Positions 19,681-37,088 of a stretch of DNA of 64,000 nucleotides are shown here, piece after piece. The translations under genes and the position numbers were made by a program. The stretch comes from Pirellulales bacterium (GTDB lineage: Bacteria > Planctomycetota > Planctomycetia > Pirellulales > JAICIG01), in the NCBI GenBank assembly GCA_035533075.1, contig DATLUO010000029.1, positions 1-64,000 of the forward strand. Direction: 5' to 3'. Under the pieces are notes generated by a model that saw nothing but the letters and a program-made list of their open reading frames with translations, was not told the DNA's origin and did not search any database. Each line of letters starts with the position of its first letter. Within the stretch, counting starts at the first letter, position 1.

Positions 19681-19798
19681 AGCGGGTTTGTCCTCCGGGT
19701 CGCGTAACGGCGATAAACCCATCATAGCCGATCGAGAAAAACACGCATGTTTTCACGGTTCAATTCCCGTCCAGATAAAGCGTAGGGTGGGACCAGCG

Positions 19799-19859
19799 AG
19801 CTTGCGAGCGCCGGCCCAGCACGGGAGTCGCGCCGATGGTGGGCCGGCGCTCGCAAGCT
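19799..19859. repeat. Inverted repeat with perfect 20-bp arms
   Basis: 19799-19818 (AGCTTGCGAGCGCCGGCCCA) and 19840-19859 are exact reverse complements around a 21-nt loop. It lies in the roughly 320-nt gap between the GH15 gene and the defence island; otherwise that gap holds nothing recognisable. Probably a dispersed palindromic element. Confidence 0.8.
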
Positions 19860-20499: not shown

Positions 20500-23334
20500 A
20501 TGCTGCCGTTGAGGCTACGGCCGGAGTTTCTCGAGAAGCACATGCGGACGACCGCGATCGAATTGTGCAATAAGCAGAACTCCGGCTGGGCGCAGCGTGC
20601 CAACCCCGGCGAACTGCTGGAAATCACCTATCCGACGTCCGACGTGCAACGTGCGCTCGACGCCGTCTCGACCAGCGCCGGCAAGCCGGTTGTTTTCATC
20701 GGCCCCCGCGGACGCGGCAAGTCGCACATCATGGCCCTGCTGCATTATGCCTTCACGTCGCCGGACGTGGTCGAAGGTTGGGCAGCCCGGTGGTCGGGGC
20801 GAACTGTCGCGCCTCGCCTCGCCGGCTTGAAACTACAGCGCGGCTTCGTGGCAGTATCCGAGACCCTTTCGAACCAGGAATACGCCTTTCTCTGGGACGT
20901 CGTTTTCGAGCGCCACCCGAAGGGACAATACTATCGTGGCAAGTTCGAGCAAGCGGGCACGCCGGTGCCAGCCAAGTCGCTCTTGCAAGATCTGTTCAAA
21001 GAGCAACACACCGCCCTGGTGCTCGACGAGTTTCAGACCTGGTTCGACGGACTGCGCGACGAGCCGGGCGACGAGGGCCGCAAGCTGCGGCATTGGGCGT
21101 TCAATTTCATCCAGATTCTGTCGGAGTTGGCGAAAGAGCGCCCCGATCTGCTTTGTCTTGTCGTCTCGGTACGCGACAACACGACCGAGGCCTACCGGCA
21201 AATCCATCGCGATGCCCCGATTCTGGTCGACTTCAAGGGCGAAACGGCCCGCGAAGATCGCAAACGGCTGCTCCTGCACCGCTTGTTCGAAAACCGTGCA
21301 AACTTCTCTGATGCCGAGGTCGAGCAGGTCGTGGAAACGTATGCCCGCGAACGATGTCGGCTGCTGTTTGGCGATCATGGCCAGGACCACGCCCGCTTGC
21401 GGCGCGAGGTCGTGGACTGCTGGCCCTTCGTGCCGGAGTTGCTCACGCTGCTTGAAGACCGCATTCTGATGGCGGCTGCCGCGCAGGACAAACGCGACAT
21501 GATCCGCATCCTGGCTGAGGTGTTCCGTGCCCGCGGCGCCAGCATGCCCCTGCTCACGGCCGCCGATTTCCATGTTGACGACGATGCTTGCGGCGTGACT
21601 TCGCTTTTGGATTCTTTTGCGACGACCGCCGATCAGGAACAGTTGCGCGTCAAAGCCCAGCGCAACCTGGAAGCGATTCGCGTCGCCGGTGTCGTTGCTC
21701 CGCACGCTCGCGAAGTCATCAGCAGCCTGTGGATGCGCTCCATGGGTGAATCGCAAGAGCTAGGCGGAACTCGCAACGAAGTCCAACTCGACATCACGCG
21801 CGAGGCACCGGTCGACGACAACGCCTTTACCGCGGAACTGGCAGCGATCGTCGACAATAGCTTCAACATCCACCCCGTGGGGGCGCAACAGAAACGCTAT
21901 TGCTTCAAACTACCGGAAAACCCCGGCGCCAAGCTGAAGGCCTCGGCGCGAAACGACCGCCTGTTCGATCCCGGCACGGCCACGGCGCCCGGCCTGTTGC
22001 CGGTGCGGCGCGATCAAGAATTTGTGCGGCAGGTGCTGAGCTACGTTCTCAAGTCGCCCGATGGAGCCAACGAACAGCCGAACGTTCCGATTGTGCTCGA
22101 CCCAAATTGGCAGCGCGCGCCGTGGGCCAACGTGAAGCAAGACGAACAACCGGCCAAATGGCACGAGCATGGAAACCCGGTGCTGATCGCCTTGCCGGAG
22201 CCGCCGGCCGAACTCTCGGCCACGCTTGGCCCCTGGTTGGTGACCAACGTCCCGGTCAATCGCAACATGGTTCGCTTCCTGCTGCCCAAGGCGGGCGCTG
22301 CCAGCATTTACGATGACAAGGATCTGCTGATTACGGCCCGCTGCGCGCTGTTGGCCAAGGAATGGAAAGAGAGCGACACGCATTACGCGGAGTTGCACCG
22401 CCGCTATGAGACCGAACTCAAGAAAGGGCTCGGCGAGCGTTACGACCGCTACGCCCTTCTTGACCGTTGGGATTTTCAGAACCCGGCCAACTGCACCTTC
22501 CACGAAGAGAAGCACCGAGCGACGGGCGGCAAGATTCCCAAGGCGGTCGAAGAACACGTGCGGCTCAACTATTTCGCGCCCGAAGACTTCGAAGCGTTCG
22601 CCCTGGCCGTCGCCGGACGAAACGAGACGATGCGACAGTTATTGGCCTTGTTGCGCAACGAGCCGTTGCCGGGCAAAACGGCGATTCCCTATTTGGGCGA
22701 AGCGGCGGTCTACGAGCAAGTGCTGCGCGTCGCCGCCCGCGGCAAGATCATCCTCAATGTCGGCGGAAAATGGTTGAGCCGAAACGGGAACGAAAGCGAA
22801 GACGAGGCGTTCAGCCATCTTAAGCAACGCGGCTTCCGCACGGGCACGGAAATGTACGGCGTCCAGCTCGGCGACCCCAGCCAGAAGAGCGGCGGCGGAG
22901 TTGTGGTCGTCGTCGGTGAACAGCCAACCGGCTTGCAGCCCGGCCAGCAACCGTTGTGGACGACAACGGAGCCATCCCCCGTTACCGGGCCGAGCGCTGG
23001 TTCGTCCGCAGTCGTCGTCGCTCCTCTGACCGTTCCAGCGCTGCCAGCGGGCGGCGTTCAACCGGCTGGCGTGTTGCCAAATGGCAATGGCTCTACGACG
23101 GTCGTCGTCGCCGCGCCGGTCATTCACCGTTCGTTAGGCGCCAAATCGGGCATCAACCTCCTCGGCGACCTCGAGCGCTGGGCGCTGCCCGACGGCCAGC
23201 GCGTGATACAGGCATCGCTGACGATCAGCGGCGCTACCGTCAAGGAGTTGCGAGAACTTTGTTCCAGGATCCCTGCCAAGATCGTCGCCGAACTGCAGAT
23301 AACTCTGCCGCCTGAGGGGGATGCAGGGCCGTGA
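20500..23334 (+). CDS. Large P-loop ATPase, BrxC/DUF499-like, of a BREX-like defence system
   Basis: 944 aa. Walker A GPRGRGKS at 68-75, Walker B ALVLDEFQTW with D176/E177. The ATPase core is about residues 40-330. A long middle region follows, then a Pro/Val/Gly-rich linker (about 805-880) and a compact C-terminal domain (GINLLGDLERWALPDGQ). Large AAA ATPases with this layout (BrxC/PglY, DUF499, DUF6079) accompany PglZ and DNA methyltransferases in anti-phage loci; which subfamily applies is not settled here. GGAGG is 5 nt before the ATG. Its stop overlaps the GTG of the PglZ gene (GTGA), so the two are translationally coupled. Confidence 0.75.
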   Translation: MLPLRLRPEFLEKHMRTTAIELCNKQNSGWAQRANPGELLEITYPTSDVQRALDAVSTSAGKPVVFIGPRGRGKSHIMALLHYAFTSPDVVEGWAARWSGRTVAPRLAGLKLQRGFVAVSETLSNQEYAFLWDVVFERHPKGQYYRGKFEQAGTPVPAKSLLQDLFKEQHTALVLDEFQTWFDGLRDEPGDEGRKLRHWAFNFIQILSELAKERPDLLCLVVSVRDNTTEAYRQIHRDAPILVDFKGETAREDRKRLLLHRLFENRANFSDAEVEQVVETYARERCRLLFGDHGQDHARLRREVVDCWPFVPELLTLLEDRILMAAAAQDKRDMIRILAEVFRARGASMPLLTAADFHVDDDACGVTSLLDSFATTADQEQLRVKAQRNLEAIRVAGVVAPHAREVISSLWMRSMGESQELGGTRNEVQLDITREAPVDDNAFTAELAAIVDNSFNIHPVGAQQKRYCFKLPENPGAKLKASARNDRLFDPGTATAPGLLPVRRDQEFVRQVLSYVLKSPDGANEQPNVPIVLDPNWQRAPWANVKQDEQPAKWHEHGNPVLIALPEPPAELSATLGPWLVTNVPVNRNMVRFLLPKAGAASIYDDKDLLITARCALLAKEWKESDTHYAELHRRYETELKKGLGERYDRYALLDRWDFQNPANCTFHEEKHRATGGKIPKAVEEHVRLNYFAPEDFEAFALAVAGRNETMRQLLALLRNEPLPGKTAIPYLGEAAVYEQVLRVAARGKIILNVGGKWLSRNGNESEDEAFSHLKQRGFRTGTEMYGVQLGDPSQKSGGGVVVVVGEQPTGLQPGQQPLWTTTEPSPVTGPSAGSSAVVVAPLTVPALPAGGVQPAGVLPNGNGSTTVVVAAPVIHRSLGAKSGINLLGDLERWALPDGQRVIQASLTISGATVKELRELCSRIPAKIVAELQITLPPEGDAGP

Positions 23335-24365
23335 CGACATCGAGCGAGACCACGCGCGGCGGTTTGCCGGAAGGCGATGCTTGGCGCGAACTAATCCTGG
23401 GCCGGGCCGGCAACGTTGCCGACGGCGGTTCGACATGGCGGTCGATCTTCGCGCGGCTGAAGCAGCTTGCGCTGGCCACGACAGACCCTCTGACGTTGCA
23501 CAGGGAATTGGTCGTGCCCGATTGTCTGCTGGCCGAATCAGCTTGGGATCTTTGGGAGCAGTTCCGCCCGGCCGCGCCATCGGCAATCGACCAACTTAAG
23601 CAATTCTGGGCGGCCGGCTCGGCCACGGGCACGGCGGTCTTGATTCTCGACGGACTTTCGCTCCGCGAACTTCCGTTGATCGTCGCCGCCGCGACCGACC
23701 GGGGCATCGCGCCGTTGCGGGTCGAAGTGCGGGCTGCTGAGGTGCCGACAGAAACGGACCAATTCGCTTCAGCCCTAGGCATCGCGGGACGGTCGAAGCT
23801 CTTTAACAACAAGGCACCGGCGGGATTCATTTTTGCCGGTTCCGACGTGTACACCGACGTCCTCGACAGCCCGTTTGCCGATTGCGTGGCTTCGGTTCCT
23901 GCCAGCCCGCGGCTGTTTATTTGGCACAAATGGCCCGACGAGCCGCTGATTCATCTCCATGAGGATAAGCAGGACGGGCCGGCCATTGTCGCCGACACGA
24001 CGCGCAAGGAGCTTTCTTCCGACGGCTTTTGGTCGTTCGTCGATCGACTCCGCCAAGGGCGGCGACTGGCAATCACCTCCGACCACGGCTACGCGGTAAG
24101 CAAACTTTTTTCCAGCGAAGTGACCGACAAGGAAATCGTCAAGCTGCTGCGTGAAACCTTCGGCGCGAAGCGTTGTGCCAAGGTACGCCCTGACCGTCCC
24201 TGGCCCCGTTGCCACTTGCCGCCGTTGGTATGTCAGTACGGCGACTGGCTGGTTGTCATGGGCCAGCGCAAATGGGCCTCGCCAGGCGGGTTCCCTAACC
24301 TCTGCCACCGCGGGCTGTCGTTGCTTGAAGCGGCGGTGCCTTGGGTGGAATTGCCGCCGTTGTAG
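23331..24365 (+). CDS. PglZ-domain protein (short form)
   Basis: 344 aa, start GTG at 23331 within the upstream stop. Alkaline-phosphatase-superfamily features of PglZ are visible: strand plus Asp in AVLILDGLSLREL (D107) and metal-site ITSDHGYAVS (D251, H252). BREX PglZ proteins are usually 650-900 aa, so this is a core-only version lacking long N- and C-terminal extensions. PglZ is essential in known BREX systems, but its substrate there is unclear. The coupling to the ATPase gene argues that the two products work together. Confidence 0.75.
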   Translation: MTTSSETTRGGLPEGDAWRELILGRAGNVADGGSTWRSIFARLKQLALATTDPLTLHRELVVPDCLLAESAWDLWEQFRPAAPSAIDQLKQFWAAGSATGTAVLILDGLSLRELPLIVAAATDRGIAPLRVEVRAAEVPTETDQFASALGIAGRSKLFNNKAPAGFIFAGSDVYTDVLDSPFADCVASVPASPRLFIWHKWPDEPLIHLHEDKQDGPAIVADTTRKELSSDGFWSFVDRLRQGRRLAITSDHGYAVSKLFSSEVTDKEIVKLLRETFGAKRCAKVRPDRPWPRCHLPPLVCQYGDWLVVMGQRKWASPGGFPNLCHRGLSLLEAAVPWVELPPL

Positions 24366-24504
24366 TACGATAATGAATTCACACGGTCCGTGGTGGCGAA
24401 TCGGCTCAGTCATCACCTTCAATTGTCGTCGGAGAGCCGTTTCTTTATTATCCGCAGCAACCGCGTTAGAACGACGTCATTAAGGGTTTCACAGGGGCGC
24501 CAAT

Positions 24505-25425
24505 ATGGCCAAAGTCGACCGACTAGCAAAGCTGTTTCACGCGTTGGCGCACGGCGATAATGCGCGGGCCGAACAGGTCGCTGCCGACATATGCGCGGAC
24601 GAGGAGCAACGAGGGCACCGCTCCGCGGCGCGTCTGCTTCGCGGCGCATTAAGGAAAAACGGCAACGGAGTCGTGCGATTCAGCCAACCGTTAGACGCGC
24701 CGTCGGAAGCGTCATTGCAGCCTCTCTTGCCAAACGCCGCGCTGACTGCGCTATCCCATACGATCGGCCTCGCTGACGTTGTGCTGAAAAAGCGGTGGCG
24801 TGACGAACTCGACGGATTTGTCCGCGAGTGGCGGCAACGGTCGGTGTTGCAACAACGCGGAATTCGGAGAAGGACGAAGCTCTTCTTTTATGGTCCACCG
24901 GGTTGTGGCAAGAGCTTAACCGCGCGTGCGTTGGCCAAGGAACTCGGGTTGCCAATCTACGTTGTTCGCTTCGACGGGGTGATTGGTGCGTATTTGGGTC
25001 AAACCGCCATTCACCTACGTCAATTGTTCCATTTTGCGGAATCGGTTCCGTGCATCTTGTTGTTCGATGAGTTAGACGCCTTGGGTAAAAAACGAGGCAA
25101 TCCTCTGGACGTAGGCGAGTTGGACCGAATTGTTATCGCCTTAATGCAAGAGTTGGAGCACACATCGCCAAGCGGTGCGATCATCGCCACTTCAAATTTG
25201 CCGCGCCACGTTGACGACGCACTTTGGCGTCGGTTTGACCTGGCGGTCCAGTTCCCTTCCCCGACCAAGGCCGAGCTACAGGCATTCGGCAAAAGCATCG
25301 CGACGACCCATCAGATAAGCTTTGGGCCTAGAATCAAACGACGCATCGCCACTGCCAAGAGTTTTGCCGAAGCGGAGAAGCTAGTCGAGGCCGAAGCGCG
25401 GCGAATGGCGCTGAGCGAGGGATAA
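24505..25425 (+). CDS. ietA: IetA-like AAA ATPase of an IetAS pair
   Basis: 306 aa. An N-terminal helical region of about 120 residues precedes a FtsH/Cdc48-type AAA module: Walker A GPPGCGKS at 130-137, Walker B CILLFDELDALG with D188/E189, and sensor-1 IIATSNLP. The pairing with a subtilase directly downstream (8-nt gap) is the IetA-IetS layout, first described as a plasmid stability pair and later reported as an anti-phage system; by that precedent IetA restrains IetS. The gene is visibly more AT-rich than its neighbours, so the pair was probably acquired separately from the surrounding BREX-like genes. Confidence 0.8.
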   Translation: MAKVDRLAKLFHALAHGDNARAEQVAADICADEEQRGHRSAARLLRGALRKNGNGVVRFSQPLDAPSEASLQPLLPNAALTALSHTIGLADVVLKKRWRDELDGFVREWRQRSVLQQRGIRRRTKLFFYGPPGCGKSLTARALAKELGLPIYVVRFDGVIGAYLGQTAIHLRQLFHFAESVPCILLFDELDALGKKRGNPLDVGELDRIVIALMQELEHTSPSGAIIATSNLPRHVDDALWRRFDLAVQFPSPTKAELQAFGKSIATTHQISFGPRIKRRIATAKSFAEAEKLVEAEARRMALSEG

Positions 25426-25433
25426 CGGTAGCC

Positions 25434-27794
25434 ATGCCAAAAAGCCATGATCAGGTCACGCCAAAGACCTACTTCCTCAATGAGCAGCATGAGCTTCCTC
25501 ACGATGAGAAGAGAGGCGGCGGACAACTACCCAAGTTCGCCAACATCGACTGGGCCGCTAAGGGCGAGACTCTCAACCAAACGCTCAACGCCGCTGTCCA
25601 GAGACTCGATGGATCTAAAGACCCGTTGCGTAGAGAGCGGTATTTTCTTTTGGCGGCACCAGCACCGGTGGAAAAGACGTCAACCGATAAGAAGAAAGCG
25701 CCGGATGGAACATTCGTCGAACCAACCGATTTTTCCAGGACACAATCACGGGTCTTCGGAAGGCTTGGGTTAGACCTCATTGAGGTGACCGACGACGGTC
25801 GAGCGGTGGTTCATGCGAAGGCCGAACGCTTGGAACAGTTGAAGCTCTGGTCGGGCTCTTTGGATCAACTTGGCGCCAGGGAACAAGCGCGCTGGGCGAC
25901 GCTCGATTCATTTGACACGATTCCGCCCGACTTGCGGATCGACTCGCAATGGTGGCAGTCGCTGAAGAAAAAGTTGCCCGTCGACGCGCTCGTTGAACTT
26001 CAACCTCTGTTGACCCGGTCCGAGGTTGAACGCGTCATGCGCTCGATCGCTGATCTATTGCTCGATAAGCAGCAGGAGAAACTTACTGCAACGGGTAGCG
26101 ATTTATCGGGGCGGTTTTGGTTGCGAGGTTCAATCAGTCCGGAATCCCTACGCGAAATTGCAAACGAATTCTTCTCAGTTCAATCGCTCCATCCGCCCCT
26201 CTATTCGATGGCTGCCGCGATAAGCCGCTCGCGATCGGCGGCCAGCGCCGCGCTGGCGCCGCCGACGGCGATCGATGTGTCGACGCTTCCATCCATTGGC
26301 GTGCTCGATTCAGGCGTCCCAGATGGCCATGTGCTGCTCGCGCCGTATCGCCGCGGAACCGTTGTTGGGCCAACGTCAATTGGGCGAGCGGTTGGCGACC
26401 ACGGTTCGAAAGTTGCATCGCGTATCGTCTTCGGCGAGCAGGATTTTTCAGGCGGCGTAAACGCGGTGGCCGGAAGTTGCAGATTTCTTGACGTCCAGGT
26501 TTCAATGGGACATGGGCAATATGATGACAAGGGGATACTCGATGCGCTCGTGACGGCGATTCGCGCCCATCCCGATGTTCGCGTCTTCAATTTGAGCCTG
26601 GCGGACCAGCAACCTGTCGACAGCTATACCCCAGTCGAAAGACGCGAGCGCTTGCGCTCGCTGCAAGACCTTGACTGCCTGGTTTTTGAAACCGATGTGG
26701 TGGTCGTGGTCGCTGCGGGAAACACGCTGGCCGGCGTGGTGCCGACTCCCGCCTACCCGGACCATGTTGAGGTCCAGGACTGGCGCCTTGGCGTGTGGGC
26801 ATCTGGCTTTAATACTCTTGTTTGTGGTTCATATGTCGGTCGCCTTGGCATCGGCGGTCTGGCACAACTCGGTTGGCCGAGCCCGTTCACCCGCATAGGT
26901 CCAGGGATCGCTGGCGCGCCAGTTCCGGGATATTCGGCTGCTGGCGGCAATTCCAACGCAGCCCATCGGTTTGTGCCAGGGCTCGGTGAATGGGTATGCA
27001 CCGACGTTGGGCGTTGGGAAGACCACTCGGGTACTTCCTTCGCCGCCCCCTTGCTGGCGCGTGAGGCTGCGTTCGGCTTCGACCTGCTACAGCATTACTG
27101 CCAGCAAGGAGCGAGACCGTTCGGTGTTACGCTCAAGGCTTTTCTCGCTCTTGCGGCAATAAGCCCGCAGGTACCGGCGCATGTTCAGCCGCTCACCCAA
27201 CGCACGCTTGGGCGAGGAGCGACGAGCGCCGCACGATTGCGAACACCAGATCCCAATCGTGCGGTAATGCTTTGGCAAGGCACCATCGATGGTCCAAGCG
27301 ATGAGGTAAGCGTTCAGTTGCCGATTCCGAGCGACTGGTTGAACGACGCGCAAAAGCCTGTGCTGCGGCTCATTGCCTGTTGGGACCCGCCCGTCAATGA
27401 AGCCGCACGCGGAATTTGGGCGTCTCGGCGGGTTTCAACAAAATTGCGACGAGGGCCGGACGAGAAAGCTGAGCGCGGCGGCAGAGGTAATCATGTGAGC
27501 TATCCCCTGCTTGAACGCAGTTATGACCTACAGAAAGCTGTCGGCCTGACCTCCATCGATGGCGACATTTGGCTTGTGGAACTGGCATACGATGAGATTG
27601 CCGATTACCGCGCCGGAACAGATTTCACGCCCCAACAGCGCGTGGCATTCGCGGCTGAATTGTGTGACCTGGGGGAGAATCCAACCAGTCCGCAGGCAGC
27701 CATGCAAGCGCTGCCAATAGCTGCAACAATGCAACGACTCAGCGTGCCACCGGCGGCGGTTCGCGCTCCGATAGTCCTTAAATCGCGCTTTTAG
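25434..27794 (+). CDS. ietS: IetS-like subtilisin (S8) protease
   Basis: 786 aa. The N-terminal 280 residues are charged and have no signal peptide, so the enzyme is intracellular. The S8 domain has a full triad: D292 in IGVLDSG, H323 in GDHGSKVA, S535 in GTSFAAP. A C-terminal region (about 590-786) with beta-rich stretches follows. In IetAS the protease is the effector or toxin, held in check by the ATPase. Codon and base composition resemble ietA and differ from the flanking methyltransferase gene. Overall length is within that of known IetS proteins. Confidence 0.82.
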   Translation: MPKSHDQVTPKTYFLNEQHELPHDEKRGGGQLPKFANIDWAAKGETLNQTLNAAVQRLDGSKDPLRRERYFLLAAPAPVEKTSTDKKKAPDGTFVEPTDFSRTQSRVFGRLGLDLIEVTDDGRAVVHAKAERLEQLKLWSGSLDQLGAREQARWATLDSFDTIPPDLRIDSQWWQSLKKKLPVDALVELQPLLTRSEVERVMRSIADLLLDKQQEKLTATGSDLSGRFWLRGSISPESLREIANEFFSVQSLHPPLYSMAAAISRSRSAASAALAPPTAIDVSTLPSIGVLDSGVPDGHVLLAPYRRGTVVGPTSIGRAVGDHGSKVASRIVFGEQDFSGGVNAVAGSCRFLDVQVSMGHGQYDDKGILDALVTAIRAHPDVRVFNLSLADQQPVDSYTPVERRERLRSLQDLDCLVFETDVVVVVAAGNTLAGVVPTPAYPDHVEVQDWRLGVWASGFNTLVCGSYVGRLGIGGLAQLGWPSPFTRIGPGIAGAPVPGYSAAGGNSNAAHRFVPGLGEWVCTDVGRWEDHSGTSFAAPLLAREAAFGFDLLQHYCQQGARPFGVTLKAFLALAAISPQVPAHVQPLTQRTLGRGATSAARLRTPDPNRAVMLWQGTIDGPSDEVSVQLPIPSDWLNDAQKPVLRLIACWDPPVNEAARGIWASRRVSTKLRRGPDEKAERGGRGNHVSYPLLERSYDLQKAVGLTSIDGDIWLVELAYDEIADYRAGTDFTPQQRVAFAAELCDLGENPTSPQAAMQALPIAATMQRLSVPPAAVRAPIVLKSRF

Positions 27795-27814
27795 CAGATT
27801 AGTATACGGCACAG

Positions 27815-30800
27815 ATGGCCAAACCCAAAGCCGCTCCTGACCAGCTCACCTTTCCGGGCGTCGAACTCGACTCGCAAGACAAGTTCGATTTCGCACTGCC
27901 CGGCGGACGGCGCGCTGCGCGGCGAGCTGACGAAGACGACGAAAGCCATCTGCCGCCGAATCTGGGGCAGCCGGTCAAGCTGCTGGTGCCGGACTTCTCG
28001 GATCCGAATCGGCCGAAGACGTGCTTGGAGGTCGATTTCCCGATCGTGCCGATCAACGCGCTGTCGATCCTGGAAGGGAACGCGGGCAAGCCGATCTACC
28101 AGATGAGCAAGTGGTGGGCGCGCAGGCGGAGCTGTGTCTTCAGGGCAATGCTCATCGCCGCGGCTACGCAAGCGCCGTTTCGCAAACATCCCGATGGTTC
28201 GCCGGTGCTCGACGAAAATGGCCGGCCGCTGCCCGACGATACCGAGGCGGCCAAGGCCGTCTGGGACGTTTATTATGCCAACCATCAGGCCGGCGGCAAC
28301 TTCAAGCACCTCAAAGTGCTCGACTGCTTCATGGGTGGTGGCACCACGCTCGTCGAAGGCTCGCGGCTGGGCTTCCAGGTGACCGGCGTCGATCTCAATC
28401 CGGTCGCCTGGTTTGTCGTCAAGAACGAGCTGGCCTGCACCGATCCGGCCGAAGTCAAAGCCTTTTTCGCTTCGATCGAGGCCGAAGTCAAGCCGCTCAT
28501 TCAGCCGTTTTATGTGACCGATTGCCCGCGGGGACATAAGGGGACGTGGTTCGACGTGGCGACCGGCAAGCCGGTCGAGGAGGATGGACTCGGCGAATCT
28601 CTGCTCTGTAGGGAACGCCCTCCGTGGCGTTCCGCGAGCCCCGCGGCGGCGTCGAGCCCCACGCCGCGAAACGCCACGCCGCGGAACGCCACGGAGGGCG
28701 TTCCCTACAGAGAAACCGAAGAGGCACTGGGAAGGCCATCCTCCCAACGCTTCGATCCCGCCACGCTGCCGCCGGAAGAGCGCAAGCGATACCGCTACGA
28801 AGGCCCCGAAATCATCTATACCTTCTGGGCCAAGCACGGGCCTTGCACCAAGCCGGGCTGCGGCCACCGCACGCCCGTATTTCGCTCGCCGGTGATCGCC
28901 GAGAAAAAGCTGGGCGTGAAATACATTCCGCTCACGTGCAAGTCGTGCAAGACGCGGTTCCACGCCGAACTGGGAAGTGCCCGCATGGCGCCGGCGGCCG
29001 AGCGCGTGGTGCTCGACAGCGAAGAGCCGTTCACGGAGCTTTCGCAGCCCTTTGCCCGGTTGCTGGCGGAATACGGACAGGGGAACAAAGACGACAAGCG
29101 GGCCCGCGCGGCGGAACTGTTCGGCATGGTCGAAAGCGAGCCGGGGCTGCGCTGCCCCAAGTGCGGCGCGTTTGCCGGGCAATATCTGCGCGACGTGTTG
29201 AACAACCATCGCCAGGCCCAGACTGCCAAGGCGATCGACAAAAAGGATCTCAAGATCGAGCCTGCCCGCAACAGCACGAAGCCGGTTTATTGCTACCTGC
29301 TGATTCACCCCGACTGGCTGCAAGGCTCGCCCGGCACGCTCGACGGCGAAGAGGTGGGCGGCTACGCCGACGCGCCGGTCGAGGCCACGGCCCGCTGGTA
29401 TCGTGAGCGCTTGAAGAATCTCTCGCTGATCGAGGTCCGCGGCCGCATTCGGCTGGCCGACGACAGTTCTCTGCGCGACGCGACCGACGCTGTGGAGGCG
29501 GCCGAAGCGGACGAAACAGCAGAGAGTGACGTGGAGCCCGAAGCCGAAGACCGCAAGACCTACGGCCTGCCGCGGTTTATCACGCTGGCCGACGGCCGGA
29601 AGATCGATACCCGCAAGACGACGTTCATCCGCAAGGCCACGATCGCCTGTCAGTCATGCGGGCAGCCCGACGGCATCATCGAGGCGCTGCGGCGCGCCAA
29701 GCACAGCGCGCCGCTGGCGCCCTACGCATTGCAGTGCTTTTGCCCGCAGTGCAAAGCCGAGGGGCACGTCTACGATGGGCGTTACTTCACTGCCCCGACG
29801 AAAGATGACACTCATCGGCTGACCGCCGCCATGAATGAATGGGACGGCGAGAAAAATGGCGTGCTCGCGCCGTATTGGCCGACGGATGAGATCCCGTATG
29901 GCTGGCAAACCCATTACTGGAGCATCGGGGATCACGGTTATACGCACTGGTATCGCTTTTTCAACCCGCGTCAGCTTCTAACCCACGCGAGCCTGTTGCG
30001 GTCGATCGCACGAAATCCAAATGCGCCAAGCGCGGTGCGCGACCAGGCTCTTGGAGCGCTGGAACAGTATCTGCGAAATCAGAACATGTACTGCATCTGG
30101 GACGTCTCTCGCGACTGCATGGCGCCGTTTTACTCCAACAATCACTTCGTGCCCAAGCATCTCGTTGTCGAGAATAGCGTCTTTCCAATGCTGGGACGCG
30201 GCAACTGGCAATCATGCACCGAAAAGGTCATCGAAGGTCTGGCGTGGGCCAACCAACCGTGGGAACCGTATCTCGCCACGAGCGACGGTTCTTCGGTGAG
30301 CGGCAAGGTCGAGCCGGGGGACGCCGTGCGGCCTGGCGGCGCCACCATCACCTGCGGATCGTCGAGCGACATGCCGGCGATCGCCGGTCGGTCCGTGGAC
30401 CTCGTGATCACCGACCCGCCGTTCGGCGACAACTTCATCTATTCGGAGATGGCCAACTTCTTCTATGCCTGGCTGCGGCTGGGCTTGAAGGAACGACGTC
30501 CGGACGTGTTTGCGCCGGCCGCTTCGCCGTTCGCCCAGGAAGCCGTGAAGAACGTGGCCCATCACCACGCCGACGCCGATCAGTTCTATAAGACGATGAT
30601 GACGGCGTGCTGGGCGGAGTGCGTGCGCGTGCTGAAAGACGCGGGCTTGCTCGCCTTCACGTTCCACCACAGCGAGGACAGCCAATGGGTGATCGTGTTG
30701 GAGAGCCTGTTCGACGCCGGGCTGATCCTGGAGGCCACCATTCCCATTGCCAGCGATGAATCGAAAGGTGAAGGCGCGGCCTTTGGATCGAAAAAGATCG

Positions 30801-31594
30801 AATACGACATCATCCACGTCTGCCGCAAGCGGCTGGCCGAACCGACGAAAGTGAGTTGGGCCAAGATGCGGCAATGGGTCAAAGCGGAACTGAAGCGTCT
30901 GCGCCGGCTGCTCGAAGCCTACAAAGCGAGCGAACTGTCGGAGGCCGACATCCGCGTCATTCTCCGCGGCAAGGCATTGGAGTTCTACAGCCGGCACTAC
31001 GGGCAGGTCTATACCGCCGAGGACGAGGCCATGTCGATCGAGCGCGCGCTGTTGGGCATCAATCAGTTGCTCGATGAAGACACGGGTGGGCCCGGCGAGC
31101 GGCCACCGAGCATCGTTAGCCCGCTCGCCTACCAGTTCTTGAGATTGTTCGGCAGCCGAGCGGCATTGCCGCGCGACGAGCTGGGCAAGAATTTGCGCGG
31201 CACCGGCATCGTGCAACGCGAGTTCGAGGACCTCGGCTGGATCCAAGAGGAGGCGAAAACGGTCTACCGCGTGCCGATCGCCGAACGGTTCGAAAAACTC
31301 CGGCAGCGGCCGCGGAAGGAGATGAAAACCGAAATCGACCAGGCGCACTTCTTGATCGGCGCGGCGCTGGCCGGCAGCGGCATGAACCTGGAAAACGAGT
31401 TTGCCAAAAACACCTGGATCGTTCGCCGCACGGTGGAAGCGGTGCTCGTCTGGTACAGCCAGACCGCCGTCGAGCCGGAAATTCGGGAGGCCGCCACGTT
31501 GGCCGCCACGCTGCTGCGCCGCAGCATCGAAGAGCGCCGCACGCAGCTTCGCGACGAGCAGGGCGTGCTATTCGACGAGGCCGACCTAGACTGA
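27815..31594 (+). CDS. DUF1156-type DNA methyltransferase with zinc ribbons
   Basis: 1259 aa. N-terminal DUF1156-like part (about 75-135, ALSILEGNAGKPIYQMSKWW). SAM motif I DCFMGGGTT at 170-178; catalytic motif IV DPPF at 867-870 (LVITDPPFGDNFIY), as in adenine-N6 or cytosine-N4 enzymes. Between the motifs are Cys-rich ribbons (CTKPGCGH from residue 344, CKSCK, CPKCG, CQSCG, CPQC). This COG1743-like architecture is the PglXI type of BREX type 3. Residues about 264-300 are encoded by an inserted palindrome (28604-28712) yet the frame stays open. Its role would be host DNA modification; the site is unknown. Confidence 0.85.
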   Translation: MAKPKAAPDQLTFPGVELDSQDKFDFALPGGRRAARRADEDDESHLPPNLGQPVKLLVPDFSDPNRPKTCLEVDFPIVPINALSILEGNAGKPIYQMSKWWARRRSCVFRAMLIAAATQAPFRKHPDGSPVLDENGRPLPDDTEAAKAVWDVYYANHQAGGNFKHLKVLDCFMGGGTTLVEGSRLGFQVTGVDLNPVAWFVVKNELACTDPAEVKAFFASIEAEVKPLIQPFYVTDCPRGHKGTWFDVATGKPVEEDGLGESLLCRERPPWRSASPAAASSPTPRNATPRNATEGVPYRETEEALGRPSSQRFDPATLPPEERKRYRYEGPEIIYTFWAKHGPCTKPGCGHRTPVFRSPVIAEKKLGVKYIPLTCKSCKTRFHAELGSARMAPAAERVVLDSEEPFTELSQPFARLLAEYGQGNKDDKRARAAELFGMVESEPGLRCPKCGAFAGQYLRDVLNNHRQAQTAKAIDKKDLKIEPARNSTKPVYCYLLIHPDWLQGSPGTLDGEEVGGYADAPVEATARWYRERLKNLSLIEVRGRIRLADDSSLRDATDAVEAAEADETAESDVEPEAEDRKTYGLPRFITLADGRKIDTRKTTFIRKATIACQSCGQPDGIIEALRRAKHSAPLAPYALQCFCPQCKAEGHVYDGRYFTAPTKDDTHRLTAAMNEWDGEKNGVLAPYWPTDEIPYGWQTHYWSIGDHGYTHWYRFFNPRQLLTHASLLRSIARNPNAPSAVRDQALGALEQYLRNQNMYCIWDVSRDCMAPFYSNNHFVPKHLVVENSVFPMLGRGNWQSCTEKVIEGLAWANQPWEPYLATSDGSSVSGKVEPGDAVRPGGATITCGSSSDMPAIAGRSVDLVITDPPFGDNFIYSEMANFFYAWLRLGLKERRPDVFAPAASPFAQEAVKNVAHHHADADQFYKTMMTACWAECVRVLKDAGLLAFTFHHSEDSQWVIVLESLFDAGLILEATIPIASDESKGEGAAFGSKKIEYDIIHVCRKRLAEPTKVSWAKMRQWVKAELKRLRRLLEAYKASELSEADIRVILRGKALEFYSRHYGQVYTAEDEAMSIERALLGINQLLDEDTGGPGERPPSIVSPLAYQFLRLFGSRAALPRDELGKNLRGTGIVQREFEDLGWIQEEAKTVYRVPIAERFEKLRQRPRKEMKTEIDQAHFLIGAALAGSGMNLENEFAKNTWIVRRTVEAVLVWYSQTAVEPEIREAATLAATLLRRSIEERRTQLRDEQGVLFDEADLD
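28604..28712. repeat. Palindromic element (perfect 33-bp arms) inside the methyltransferase gene
   Basis: 28604-28636 and 28680-28712 are exact reverse complements over 33 bp (core GGAACGCCCTCCGTGGCG), separated by 43 nt that are themselves partly palindromic. In another plus-strand frame it encodes the peptide GNALRGVPR that recurs in planctomycete sequences. It interrupts the region between the N-terminal domain and the first zinc ribbon without breaking the frame. Confidence 0.92.
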
Positions 31595-31608
31595 AGATAG
31601 GGCGAACT

Positions 31609-31971
31609 ATGACGGCGAAAGCGGACGATGAGAGCCGGGAACCGGCTGAAGAATCTGGCCGAGAGATTGCATTGGTGTACGAACCGAATCCCAAGCACAA
31701 AGATCCGTGGCAACCGGGCCGTAGGGGATCGCTTTGCGAAGCGGAGGTGCGTCCGCAGGCGCAAGACCTGCTGGAAACAAGTATCCTATGGGAGGACGGT
31801 CGACGGTACGCCGTCTATGAGGGAATGGCGTATTGTGCGCAAGAGAGCGGCGGCAAATGGCATGGTTATCCCGTCGGCTGGAGAGAAGTTCCGCAAAAAC
31901 TAGCACTACGGTTGAGGCGCGAAGGCCTCGTTAGCAAGCGACAATTGGACCGTTTTTGGAGATCGCATTGA
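31609..31971 (+). CDS. Small hypothetical protein coupled to the ImmA-like protease
   Basis: 120 aa, mixed charge, no signal or membrane segment. The middle contains DGRRYAVYEGMAYCAQESGG and the end GWREVPQKLALRLRREGLVS, a basic amphipathic helix. It starts 14 nt after the methyltransferase stop, and its TGA overlaps the TTG start of the next gene (TTGA at 31968-31971), so it is probably made with that protease. It resembles no family known to me. It could be an adaptor or inhibitor for the protease; that is speculation from position. Confidence 0.55.
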   Translation: MTAKADDESREPAEESGREIALVYEPNPKHKDPWQPGRRGSLCEAEVRPQAQDLLETSILWEDGRRYAVYEGMAYCAQESGGKWHGYPVGWREVPQKLALRLRREGLVSKRQLDRFWRSH

Positions 31972-33533
31972 AGCCACCCCGCCGCGAAATCGCGACCGGA
32001 GATCGAACGCGATTTGCCGTCAAGATCGCATTCTTGCCCGACCCAGATGCCGGGGCCGCCGCCACGCGCGAAGAAAGTCTGTCGTGGGCTGCATTTCAAT
32101 TGTGGGCCGGTGGCCATAATCTCTGTAGCCACATCGAGCTCAATGAGCCCCTCGACTCGGTGCATTGGTACATGGTCTCCGTGCTCGAATGGTTTACATC
32201 CAATTGGGATTTTCTGTTCCATGAGGAGAAAATGCCGGGCGGCACCACTACGCGCGACGCCTGGTTGGGGTTCGCCAATCGCGAATTGCCACCCGCAAAC
32301 GTCGACGAGGAAGAGTGGGAGATCAAACGCTATAACTGGTGGTCGCGTCATTGCCTGCTGAGCGCGCGGGACGGGGGCATTCTGCCGGAGATATTTTTCC
32401 GGCGTTGGCAAGATCTGATCGAGATTTCGTGGGGCGACGCAGCGCTCGCCGGGCGCCCTGAGCATTTTTCGTTCGAAGCAACCCCCGGATACGTGCGACT
32501 CGACCCATCGGATGTTGCTTCGACGCTTTACGACGTCCTTGAGCGATCTGCGCAGCACCTCGCGGAATGCGCGCCGGAGTCGGAACGTTTTTCACAGCTC
32601 GTTAAGGATGTGCAGCGACTGCGAACTTCGGATCATCGTAGAAGGCTGGGTCTCTTGGCTGGAATTGACCCCGGTTCGGAGGACGATGCCGCTTTGCGCT
32701 GGCAAGATGTCGAGGGATACTTTCCGGCCGAATTGCCTGGTGAGATACGCAGCGCGGTGTTTGGCACCGAGGACGAAAAGCTTGTCGTCCGCGGCTCGTG
32801 CCATGCAGCATTGATGTTCGGCAGCGCGGCGCCAACAATCACCAAGGATGATGCGACGCTACTCGCAGGTAAGCTGGTCGCCTTCTACTCACCGGACGGC
32901 GAATCGCCGCGATTGCGTCAATTTCATCGCAACGAGCCTATCGAACGCAGTGACCAGTTGGCTTGGAGGCAAGGATATTCCCTCGCGGAGGAACTTCTCG
33001 ATGAATTGGGATGGCCGTTGGAAGGCAACGCGGTTGATGTCGAAAAGATCTACGACGAGTTCGGCATTGGCATTGAGGAGATCGGCCTCCAGGATCGCGC
33101 GGTCCGAGCGGTTGCAATCGCGGGTCCGAAGCATAAGCCCGCCGTCCTCATCAACGAAAACTACGAAGCGACGGCGGTCGAACCCCGTCGGTTTACGCTC
33201 GCGCATGAGCTTTGCCATATTCTCCATGATCGAAGTTATGGTGATCGCTTGGCGATTATGAGCGGTCCCTGGGCGCCGTCGGACGTCGAACCCCGAGCAA
33301 ATGCCTTTGCCGCCATGCTCTTAATGCCGAAGCCGCTGCTTGACAAGGCCCTTAGAGCTCTGACCGTTCCCATATCCACGTCAGATGGTGTCTGGGAGGT
33401 GGCGAACCGGTTGGCAACGAGTTTCAGCGCAACTCTTGAACACTTGACGAATCTCAGGTTCATCAGCGAAGTGACACGCGACGCCATTCGCGGTGAAGTG
33501 GTGTCACGAGCATGGCCTAACGCACCACAATGA
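31968..33533 (+). CDS. ImmA/IrrE-family metallo-endopeptidase with long N-terminal region
   Basis: 521 aa from the TTG at 31968: GGAG is 6 nt upstream and the start overlaps the previous stop; an earlier TTG at 31956 lacks this. The C-terminal third is ImmA-like: zinc motif HELCH at 413-417 (FTLAHELCHILHD) and the usual EPRANAFAAMLLMP. The first 300 residues are not recognised and may sense a signal or bind a target. Family members cleave repressors (ImmA, IrrE/DdrO). In a defence island it could release a regulator of the cluster. It is more AT-rich than the methyltransferase gene. Confidence 0.8.
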   Translation: MKPPRREIATGDRTRFAVKIAFLPDPDAGAAATREESLSWAAFQLWAGGHNLCSHIELNEPLDSVHWYMVSVLEWFTSNWDFLFHEEKMPGGTTTRDAWLGFANRELPPANVDEEEWEIKRYNWWSRHCLLSARDGGILPEIFFRRWQDLIEISWGDAALAGRPEHFSFEATPGYVRLDPSDVASTLYDVLERSAQHLAECAPESERFSQLVKDVQRLRTSDHRRRLGLLAGIDPGSEDDAALRWQDVEGYFPAELPGEIRSAVFGTEDEKLVVRGSCHAALMFGSAAPTITKDDATLLAGKLVAFYSPDGESPRLRQFHRNEPIERSDQLAWRQGYSLAEELLDELGWPLEGNAVDVEKIYDEFGIGIEEIGLQDRAVRAVAIAGPKHKPAVLINENYEATAVEPRRFTLAHELCHILHDRSYGDRLAIMSGPWAPSDVEPRANAFAAMLLMPKPLLDKALRALTVPISTSDGVWEVANRLATSFSATLEHLTNLRFISEVTRDAIRGEVVSRAWPNAPQ

Positions 33534-33537
33534 AAAG

Positions 33538-33559
33538 GGGTCCGGCCGGTGCCGGACCC
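33538..33559. repeat. GC-rich hairpin after the ImmA-like gene
   Basis: GGGTCCGGC and GCCGGACCC form a 9-bp perfect stem with a 4-nt loop, 4 nt after the stop codon. On the plus strand no T-run follows; on the minus strand it ends in CCTTTT. It may attenuate or stabilise the transcript. The remaining 150 nt to the next gene show nothing else. Confidence 0.5.
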
Positions 33560-33713
33560 GTTGGGCGTAAAAGAGGGAGGAGTGCGGGCCGCCCGGATCG
33601 AAACCCTTAAAGGAGACCGTTCTCCTCCCCGATGTTCCTTGGCGCACCTATGCGCTGTAATGTAATGGAGTTGATTCCAAGACGAAGGTTCGCGCCATAA
33701 CCAGATTAATGCC

Positions 33714-34226
33714 ATGCAAGAACTGACCTCCAGCAGTTGGCGTCGCAGAGGCTGCAGCATCGTCTGGTCGCCGGAGCTGCTGAGCGATCTTATTGTCGAG
33801 CAAGACGCCGTGCCGTTGCGTACGGTGCTCACCTGGATGGCCAGTGGCTTTCCCGATTCACCGCCTGGCGACCGGCCGACCGTGCTGGTGGGCGGACTGC
33901 AAACGGTTCTGTCGACCGCGAGCTCCTCGTCAGCCGATGCCGTTTACGACTGGCTGCGGCAAAATATGCTGCCGCTGGTGCGGGCGTTTCAGAGCCGCTG
34001 GGACCGCGTCGGCTTGGTGTTCGTCATGGACGGCCCGCGGCAACTGTTCGATTACAACATGGCCGACGACGTGATCTATTTCGGCAGTGCCGGGCAAGAC
34101 CGCGCAAAAAAGATTAAACTGTCGCTGGGAATCTGGAACGGCGCTCTGACGGGCGACGGTGCCTATGAGTTGATTGTGCCCGACAAAAAGGAGACGGGCG
34201 GTTATCATGTCCAGCGAGTTAGTTGA
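33714..34226 (+). CDS. Uncharacterised 170-aa protein of the defence cluster
   Basis: 170 aa, cytoplasmic. It alternates predicted strands and helices: RPTVLVGGLQTVL, DAVYDWLRQNMLPLVRAFQ, RVGLVFVMDGP, DDVIYFG, then a C-terminal GAYELIVPDKKETGGYHVQR. There is no P-loop, so it is not an obvious BrxF, although size and location (beside the helicase and methyltransferase) match that small accessory gene of BREX type 3. I do not recognise a family. It lies 90 nt before the helicase in the same orientation. Confidence 0.6.
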   Translation: MQELTSSSWRRRGCSIVWSPELLSDLIVEQDAVPLRTVLTWMASGFPDSPPGDRPTVLVGGLQTVLSTASSSSADAVYDWLRQNMLPLVRAFQSRWDRVGLVFVMDGPRQLFDYNMADDVIYFGSAGQDRAKKIKLSLGIWNGALTGDGAYELIVPDKKETGGYHVQRVS

Positions 34227-34247
34227 CTTCAGCCGGCCTCACCCCAG

Positions 34248-34307
34248 CCCTCTCCCGGAGGGAGAGGGAGACAGATACCACCCCGGCCTTCTCCTGGAGG
34301 GAGAGGG
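34248..34307. repeat. Two REP-like hairpins before the helicase gene
   Basis: 34248-34268 (CCCTCTCCCGGAGGGAGAGGG) is a near-perfect hairpin, and 34287-34307 is a variant copy (CCTTCTCCTGGAGGGAGAGGG). The second 3' arm ends 9 nt before the helicase ATG and contains the only Shine-Dalgarno-like sequence there, so folding of the element would mask it. Confidence 0.7.
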
Positions 34308-34316
34308 AACAAGACC

Positions 34317-37088
34317 ATGTCCAGCGTATTAGATGAGCTGAGTGCGGGGCAAACCGTCTCGCACTCGGAAATGGGAAACGGCGTATTCCTCTCGGCCGTG
34401 GCCGGCGGCTATGCGCGGGTCTTCTTTCAACAGCTTGGCGAGCGTCAGGTGGCCATCACCTCGCTCGTGCCCGCGTTGTCGTGGGAAGAAGAGGTGGTCT
34501 CGAATGTCCGGCCCGCCACGCGCGAAGCAGTCGAACGGTTGTGGCTGGCCTTGGAGGCCGAACAGATTCCCCTGCTGGAGAACGCGGCCACGCTCACATC
34601 CGCCAAGGTCGACCTGCTGCCGCACCAGATCGTGCTCACGTATCGCATCGCGAACGCCTCGCCGCGGCGGTTTCTGATCGCCGACAGCGTCGGCTTGGGC
34701 AAGACGATTGAGACGGCGCTGATTCTGCGCGAGCTGGCTTCGCGCGGTGAGCTGTCCCGAGCGCTGATGGTCGTGCCCGCCGGCCTGGTCGAAAACTGGC
34801 GACGCGAGCTGAACGACACCTTCCACCTCGATTTCGAGGTGTTCGGCAGCGAAGGCGACGTGACCGACCGCAAGACCAACGCCTTTGCCAAGCACAACCG
34901 GCTGATCGCCAGTATCGATACGCTCAAGCGCCCGCAGCGCGTCAAGCGAATTCTGCAGGCGCCTCCGTGGGACCTGATCGTGTTCGACGAAGCGCACCAT
35001 CTAACCGCCTATCAGTCGGGCACCAAAACCACGAAGACGCAGAATTTCAAACTCGCCGAGGCGCTGCGCGATCACAGCCGCGACTTGCTGTTGCTCTCCG
35101 CCACGCCGCACCAGGGCGATCACTTCCGCTTTTGGATGCTGGTGCGGCTGTTGAACCCGACGCTGTTCACCGGCACCGACGATATGATCAACAACCGGCA
35201 TCGGCTGAACGCGGTTGTCTTTCGCCGCACTCAGGCCGACGCGTGCGACGCCCACGGCGAGCCGCTGTTCTCGCGACGGCAGGTCCACACGCAGAGCTTT
35301 CCTCTTTCACCGCCGGAAAAAGCGTTCTATGACGCCCTGATGGACTACCTGCGCGACGGTTACAATCTGGCCGAAGCAGCCGGCAGCCAGGGCCGCGCGC
35401 TGGGATTCGTGATGACGATCTTTCAGAAGATCGCGGCCAGCAGCTTTGCCGCGGTCGGCACCACCCTGCGGCGCCGGCTGCTGGGCCTGACGCTGCACGA
35501 GGCGATCGTTTGCGACGAGAACCTGGATGCCGACGGCCGCGACCGGGCCTTGGAAGCGGCCCGGCAGCAGATTCGCTCGATGTTCGGCCTGGCCAACGAC
35601 GGCCTGGGCCGTGCCGAGGCCGATCGGATTCTCGCCGACGCCAAGCTGCGGCTGCTGAGAAAACTTGGCGAAAAGGTCGACGTCGACACCGACGCCAGTG
35701 AAACCAAAGCAGCCGGCGACGAAGAGGCGGCGGCGAGCCTGGTCGCCGTGGCGCTGCCGGCCGAACGAAAGCGAATTTCCGAATTGCTGGCCATGATGCC
35801 GCACGGCGACGAAAGCAAAACGCTGGAGCTATTGCGGGCACTGGCCGATTTGTGGGCGATGCACCCGCGGGAAAAGATCGTCGTCTTCACGACGTATTTA
35901 GGAAGTGTCGATGCATTGCGGGCCGCCATTGAAAGGCAATTTCCCGGTTATGGCGTCGATGTGCTCAAGGGCGGCGACCACGGCGCGAAGGTCGCGGCCG
36001 AACGGCGTTTCAGAAAGCCCGACGGACCGCGGGTGCTGATTTGCACCGCGGCCGGGCGCGAGGGCATCAACCTGCAATTCGCGCGCGTCTTGTTCAACCA
36101 TGACCTCCCCTGGAACCCGATGGACCTGGAGCAGCGGATTGGCCGAATCCATCGCTACGGCCAGGCCCACACGGCGCAGGTTTACAACCTGGTGTCGGCC
36201 GACACGATCGAAGGCGAGATTTTCCTGCTCTTGGAAGAGAAGTTGCTCGAAATTGCGAAAGCTTTGGGCAAAGTTGACGAACTGGGGCAGGTGACTGAGG
36301 ATTTGCGCGGCCAGATTCTTGGTCAGCTCTCGGAGCGTGTGTCGTACGACAGGCTTTATCAAGACGCCGTCAAGGATCCGACGCTCCGGCGCACGCGGCA
36401 AGAGCTGGAAGTCGCATTGGAGAACGCGCGGATGGCGCGGCAGGTCGTCTTTGAGTTGTTCCAGGACCTGGAAGGCTTTCGCCTCGACGACTACAAGCAA
36501 TTCGACGACGGCGGGCAGGCGCTGCGCCGGTTGCTGGCTTTCGTGCGTGAAGCCGTGCGGCATGATGGCGGAGTTTTTCAGGCGGAGAATGCAACGACGT
36601 TCAAGGTATCGGTCAATGGCGATGGCGCATTATTGCTGACCACCGACCGCGATGCGGCCAAGCGTGACGAGAAGCTGACGCTTCTTGGGCTCGAGCATCC
36701 TTTCGTGAGACGTCTGATCGACCATCACCAGCAGTTGCCTTCGACGGCCCGTGCGCTGGTCGGCCGCTTACCTCGCAACGGTGATTCGCGCGGAGCGATC
36801 AGCACCTGGCACGTCCAGGCGCAGGCCGGCAAGGGCCAGTTTTATCAGCGAATTGTGACTGTGGGATTGGGTGCGAACGGTGAACGGTCCCCGATTGTCG
36901 AACGGCACGCCGACGAAATACTCGAGCTTGAGCCGGTCAACGCGGCAGTCTTCGACGCCGGACATCGAACCAAAGTGGTCCGTTTGACCATCCCGGAGAT
37001 GATCCGTCGCGATCTCTCTCATGCCGGTATGCTCAGCGCTGAGAGTTCAGTTAGCGCTCGGCTGCTGGGCTGGGTGGAACTTTGCTAG
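34317..37088 (+). CDS. SNF2/Swi2-family DEAH helicase of the BREX-like cluster
   Basis: 923 aa. Helicase motifs in order: I GLGKT at 126-130, II DEAHH from 224, III LLSATPHQGD, a long insert with charged helices (about 390-500), IV-V KIVVFTTYLGS and CTAAGREGINLQ, and VI QRIGRIHRYGQ. The C-terminal 230 residues are unassigned. Helicases of this SNF2/COG0553 class are BrxHII in BREX type 3 and also occur with DUF1156 methyltransferases in other anti-phage loci. It is the last gene of the plus-strand island. The role would be DNA translocation; that is inference. Confidence 0.88.
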   Translation: MSSVLDELSAGQTVSHSEMGNGVFLSAVAGGYARVFFQQLGERQVAITSLVPALSWEEEVVSNVRPATREAVERLWLALEAEQIPLLENAATLTSAKVDLLPHQIVLTYRIANASPRRFLIADSVGLGKTIETALILRELASRGELSRALMVVPAGLVENWRRELNDTFHLDFEVFGSEGDVTDRKTNAFAKHNRLIASIDTLKRPQRVKRILQAPPWDLIVFDEAHHLTAYQSGTKTTKTQNFKLAEALRDHSRDLLLLSATPHQGDHFRFWMLVRLLNPTLFTGTDDMINNRHRLNAVVFRRTQADACDAHGEPLFSRRQVHTQSFPLSPPEKAFYDALMDYLRDGYNLAEAAGSQGRALGFVMTIFQKIAASSFAAVGTTLRRRLLGLTLHEAIVCDENLDADGRDRALEAARQQIRSMFGLANDGLGRAEADRILADAKLRLLRKLGEKVDVDTDASETKAAGDEEAAASLVAVALPAERKRISELLAMMPHGDESKTLELLRALADLWAMHPREKIVVFTTYLGSVDALRAAIERQFPGYGVDVLKGGDHGAKVAAERRFRKPDGPRVLICTAAGREGINLQFARVLFNHDLPWNPMDLEQRIGRIHRYGQAHTAQVYNLVSADTIEGEIFLLLEEKLLEIAKALGKVDELGQVTEDLRGQILGQLSERVSYDRLYQDAVKDPTLRRTRQELEVALENARMARQVVFELFQDLEGFRLDDYKQFDDGGQALRRLLAFVREAVRHDGGVFQAENATTFKVSVNGDGALLLTTDRDAAKRDEKLTLLGLEHPFVRRLIDHHQQLPSTARALVGRLPRNGDSRGAISTWHVQAQAGKGQFYQRIVTVGLGANGERSPIVERHADEILELEPVNAAVFDAGHRTKVVRLTIPEMIRRDLSHAGMLSAESSVSARLLGWVELC

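Follow-up and report, generated by a model that had tools for sequence, protein, structure and literature searches.

Positions 28605-28711 of a 64,000-nucleotide stretch of Pirellulales DNA (the whole stretch analysed, hereafter the window) are a REPIN, i.e., two GTAG-tagged REP hairpins in inverted orientation. We consider it very probable that this non-autonomous mobile element was inserted in the gene of a DUF1156-family DNA methyltransferase, at a linker that is variable and non-catalytic. The observations that support this reading are the anatomy of the element, its dispersal in the genome, the fixed inverted order of its REPs, the lack of target duplication, a cognate transposase gene with the same REPs on both sides, and a segment that all aligned homologues of the methyltransferase are without.

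Anatomy of the element and its host gene

The gene that carries the insertion matches the profile PF01555 N6_N4_Mtase above its cut-off (E=9e-8), narrowly misses the cut-off of the DUF1156 profile (E=8.7e-5, 23.0 bits; cut-off 24), and is matched by PADLOC as HmaB/DUF1156_MTase. It is also a member of a defence-like island at 20500-37088 of the window, which comprises:

20500-23334, DUF499-like ATPase
24505-25425, IetA
25434-27794, IetS
27815-31594, + strand, DUF1156 / N6_N4 DNA methyltransferase ORF, 1259 aa, the gene carrying the insertion
31956-33533, M78 peptidase protein
34317-37088, HmaA/BrxH/DrmD-like SNF2 helicase

An earlier note on this DNA, made from the sequence alone, had reported exact 33-bp inverted repeats bounding 28604-28712 within the coding sequence, and these are indeed 100% complementary (arms 28604-28636 and 28680-28712, gap of 43 nt); as also reported, the ORF reads through them in frame and without a stop. 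The 33-nt arm has no further match in the window at up to 3 mismatches, and shuffled sequences lead one to expect 0. Comparison with other genomic copies places the ends of the conserved element at TCT...AGA, with the outermost C/G pair of the arms outside it. The in-frame addition stands, and its extent changes from about 37 residues (264-300) to 36 residues (264-299). The element consists of the following parts:

28605-28711, REPIN (inverted REP doublet), 107 nt, methyltransferase residues 264-299
28605-28636, + strand, left REP: TCT, GTAG foot at 28608-28611, stem 28612-28619, loop, stem 28626-28633, GCG
28637-28679, spacer between the two REPs, its sequence differing among copies
28659-28688, 15-nt tandem duplication, CCACGCCGCGAAACG / CCACGCCGCGGAACG
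28680-28711, - strand, right REP, exact reverse complement of the left REP, with its GTAG foot at 28708-28705 on the minus strand

Each arm is a hairpin in its own right, of the form TCT-GTAG-GGAACGCC/loop/GGCGTTCC-GCG with an 8-bp stem and a 6-nt CTCCGT loop, so that a short palindromic stem-loop has GTAG (within TCTGTAG) at its foot, as is characteristic of GTAG REPs. Written as a single strand, with CT next to GTAG, the REP reads TCTGTAGGGAACGCCCTCCGTGGCGTTCCGCG, and five of the six frames of the REP are free of stop codons. The 15-nt tandem duplication leaves the reading frame as before and accounts both for the spacing of the REPs, which is 75 nt here and about 60 nt elsewhere, and for the greater length of this copy compared with the usual ones. 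The description of the segment as a palindromic element was thus correct as far as the palindrome goes; it overlooked that the palindrome is a REP doublet, that its arms are GTAG-footed hairpins, and that it contains this duplication.

As single-stranded DNA the inverted-repeat region is computed to fold into a single hairpin of -59.7 kcal/mol (z = -13.6). Such a stable fold, together with the fact that REPs are often considered to act as RNA (PMC3733652), could suggest that a functional RNA hairpin, namely an attenuator, a terminator or a translation-pausing element, has been retained here to regulate methyltransferase expression. We consider this very unlikely, because the hairpin lies in the middle of the gene without a T-run, is absent from every homologue aligned, and is the same element that is found in unrelated genes and at intergenic sites.

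The homologue comparison, which the earlier note had recommended, supports an insertion. We fetched and aligned 80 methyltransferase homologues, among which L184 leaves the region uncovered. The peptide LCRERPPWRSASPAAASSPTPRNATPRNATEGVPYRE is present in 0 of the 80, and a homologue bearing the same peptide but no palindrome, sought in the same set, was not found. The linker (residues 240-330) measures 91 aa here, 34-43 aa in the nearest relatives and 36 aa in most others, and seven homologues (L131, L174, L178, L186, L194, L196 and L198) carry unrelated versions of 58-88 aa, so that the linker appears to be naturally tolerant of length. The excess over the closest linkers of 42 aa is 49 residues, 36 of which are accounted for by the REPIN; judging from the alignment, the other approximately 13 would come from normal variation of the linker or from a changed flank.

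The closest homologues are about 60% identical, and a same-family relative (genome G001) contains no full-length orthologue. Since there is consequently no empty-site allele, we infer the junction and the net length of the insertion. Because 107 nt is not divisible by 3, one added nucleotide or a small flank change has to be assumed, and a net insertion of 108 nt, or 36 codons, appears to be the most economical and most likely solution. In a predicted model of residues 60-480 the insert is coil with pLDDT of about 40, where the mean of the whole model is 63 and other parts are poor too. The methyltransferase with the insert probably still works, with the REPIN peptide modeled as an unstructured surface loop.

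The methyltransferase sequence is conserved in frame on both sides of the REPIN, as it is in the homologues, which bears on whether a repeat was collapsed or misjoined during assembly. The genome is a draft, and repeats are able to mislead assemblers, but a conserved reading frame on both sides indicates that the flanks belong together, and the element is short. We therefore regard an assembly artefact as most unlikely.

Genome-wide copies and the RAYT transposase

The earlier note described the element as dispersed, and the host genome (G000, order Pirellulales, 8.54 Mb, 296 contigs) bears this out. The 26-nt REP core occurs in 108 copies at up to 2 mismatches (56 forward and 52 reverse), including 39 occurrences without any mismatch, and a reversed control sequence of the core in 0 copies. 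When TCT is included and up to 3 mismatches are allowed, there are 169 REPs, again with 0 for the reversed control. The genome-wide copies rule out a native linker expansion whose palindromic form arose by chance or through internal duplication. Linker length varies within the family, and seven homologues have longer, unrelated versions, but an exact core repeated throughout the genome, with 0 chance matches expected in the window, leaves this explanation with a negligible probability.

The same REP is found in genomes G012 (139 copies) and G051 (84 copies), which represent another family of Pirellulales. A second and commoner GTAG REP family in the host genome, GTAGGGTGGGACCAGCGAGC..., has 708 copies at up to 2 mismatches, one of them at 19782-19859 of the window.

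The doublet architecture was judged on 68 distinct clusters taken from the host genome. Paired REPs are arranged as '><' in 29 clusters and as '>><' in 4, and the order '<>' was found in 0 of the 68, i.e., the doublets occur in one fixed inverted orientation; REPs are also found singly and in tandem arrays. Most doublets are about 91-95 nt long (24 of the 29 simple doublets measure 91-94 nt). Alignment of the 29 doublets reveals that they have only the REPs in common, with neither the flanks nor the spacer conserved. The TCT...AGA ends are conserved in 26-29 of the 29 at each position, and CT immediately precedes GTAG on its 5' side in 28 of 29. A target-site duplication is not evident above chance (junction match of 2.38, compared with 2.21 in shuffled pairings), nor does the extra complementarity of the doublet flanks exceed that in shuffled pairings.

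A gene for a REP-associated tyrosine transposase (RAYT), a Y1_Tnp protein of 187 aa, lies on the minus strand of contig C190 of the host genome (L062:1222-1785). It matches the NCBIfam profile REP_Tyr_transpos with E=4e-21 (75.3 bits, slightly under the curated cut-off of 80) and narrowly misses Y1_Tnp (22.6 against a cut-off of 23), and its motifs DHLH, WQ and YILSNP constitute the class 2 TnpA_REP set (HUH, W, Y..NP). A search against PDB sequences gave no match, and a structure prediction from only 4 sequences has pLDDT 46. Five inward-facing copies of the window-type REP surround the gene, with three at one end and two at the other. The relative G001 has a syntenic RAYT (contig C265) that is 75% identical, adjoins the same neighbour gene, and is flanked by 8 REPs of the same type (3 + 5).

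The flanks of the remaining RAYT-like loci that we fetched from the host genome do not contain the window-type REP. In G012 and G051 we found no close RAYT, and this REP is likewise missing from the flanks of the RAYT-like loci that were fetched there; possible explanations are loss of the RAYT, transfer, or the action of a different transposase. Some of the other RAYT-like genes of the host genome, on contigs C26 (L060/L113) and C135/C218 (L231, L052), have flanking repeats of their own, for example GTAGCCCGCTCGCTCCGC and GTGGGCCGGCGCTCGCAA, which suggests several REP systems within one genome.

These data also bear on the possibility that the element is a MITE of an ordinary DDE transposon, with terminal inverted repeats (TIRs) moved by a cut-and-paste transposase that leaves a target-site duplication. 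Long, perfect inverted repeats at the two ends and copies scattered through the genome would be expected of such an element as well. However, each supposed TIR is itself a GTAG-footed hairpin, the REPs exist outside doublets too, target duplication does not rise above chance, and the only candidate partner found to have the repeats on both sides of its gene is a Y1/RAYT transposase. We accordingly judge a DDE origin very unlikely.

Published TnpA_REP enzymes recognize GTAG and cleave at the neighbouring CT (PMC8266576), and by analogy we infer that the cognate RAYT moved the REPIN of the window. The enzyme would recognize the GTAG foot and the hairpin of single-stranded REP DNA and cut at the CT beside GTAG, and the doublet would be carried to a new site, probably as a single-stranded hairpin. 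Copies that break genes would then be purged by selection, and the copy in the methyltransferase gene may have survived owing to the stop-free REP frames (5/6), a net gain that keeps the frame, and a linker that tolerates changes in length.

Other copies in frame inside genes

The earlier note regarded intragenic insertion as uncommon, which does not hold for this genome, where roughly one doublet in four lies in frame within a gene. Genes around REPs were called with a custom codon-usage frame model, which was correct for 106 of 108 windows, although these belonged to its own training genes. According to this model 9 of 33 doublets are in frame inside genes and the others lie outside genes or at gene edges; among single or tandem REP clusters the proportion is 9 of 35, and in G001 3 of 15 doublets are in frame inside genes. 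Pfam domains confirm several of the REP-bearing ORFs as real genes:

L080, in-frame REPIN, AcrB pump
L011, in-frame REPIN, Lhr helicase
L020, in-frame REPIN, DUF7133/cytochrome c protein
L087, in-frame REPIN, kinase-LRR
L017, in-frame REPIN, glycosyltransferase
L082 1332-1457, in-frame REPIN, Ser/Thr kinase
L003 1498-1590, in-frame REPIN, Ser/Thr kinase
L014, single or tandem REP, DnaE (Pfam domains on both sides; frame model just under threshold on one side)
L075, single or tandem REP, S9 peptidase

The G001 orthologue of the AcrB gene is without the element at the same site, where the linkers of more distant relatives are unrelated and differ in length. The two Ser/Thr kinases (L082 and L003) are split at the same loop, which precedes the helix that leads to the catalytic motif HRDLKPSN/HRDVKPSN. 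In the Lhr helicase linker two doublets of different REP families are adjacent (L011, 1372-1467 and 1498-1590), both in frame.

The length is divisible by 3 in 7 of 12 in-frame doublets and in 5 of 32 others (Fisher p = 0.008), an enrichment that is expected if the elements insert without duplicating their target and selection then favours an intact frame. We tentatively suggest, while considering it somewhat doubtful, that in this Pirellulales family REPINs could continually supply proteins with new segments; a high rate of entry, in-frame survival in flexible linkers and repeated hits on the same loop in paralogous kinases would then point to site-preferring machinery or to an unusual tolerance of the lineage.

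Comparison with known systems

REPINs were defined in 2011 by Bertels and Rainey as REP doublets mobilised by RAYTs (PMC3116915). The elements described here share with them the inverted REP pair, the non-conserved spacer, the fold into one hairpin, about 100 or more REP copies and a REP-flanked RAYT; new here are the REP sequence and its occurrence in a Pirellulales genome. In P. fluorescens SBW25 the commonest 16-mers, about 1,067 in number, overlap genes in only 14 cases (PMC3116915), compared with 9 of 33 doublets lying in frame within genes in the present genome, which is a rough comparison as both methods and units differ.

Intragenic GTAG REPs were described by Di Nocera et al. in 2013 as giving rise to 'REP-decorated proteins', mostly through dimers coding for 20-30 aa (PMC3733652). 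They occur in several phyla, often in DNA-processing genes, and are suggested to occupy flexible regions; GTAG repeats were noted in the PVC superphylum, with the top intragenic count in the verrucomicrobium O. terrae (PMC3733652). The REP sequence of the window was not found in the searched text of that report. Both cases involve dimers of GTAG-tagged REPs that lie in frame within ORFs; among the host genes of the present element are a methyltransferase, kinases and an efflux pump. REPs have also been described in frame within tnpA_REP genes (PMC6006769).

The Rickettsia elements RPE-1, -4 and -6 are similar in that they are palindromes that have entered many unrelated proteins without disturbing the frame. 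The CGTC-tagged class includes RPE-4 and RPE-6 (PMC3733652), whereas the element described here has GTAG in place of CGTC and is accompanied by a RAYT. With IS200/IS605 (Y1 HUH) it has in common the Y1 tyrosine transposase family and the lack of target duplication; unlike in IS200/IS605, the transposase gene lies outside the mobile unit, and its product would act in trans on short REP doublets.

In view of the published intragenic GTAG REPs and the in-frame RPEs of Rickettsia, the REPIN of the window belongs to a known kind of element, to which we add a REP sequence, a host group and a high intragenic fraction, the last of which is mildly surprising: REPs were named 'extragenic', yet about one in four doublets here lies in frame inside a gene. 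With the transposase gene still present and an empty AcrB site in a related genus, the conversion of non-coding mobile DNA into protein becomes testable outside Rickettsia.
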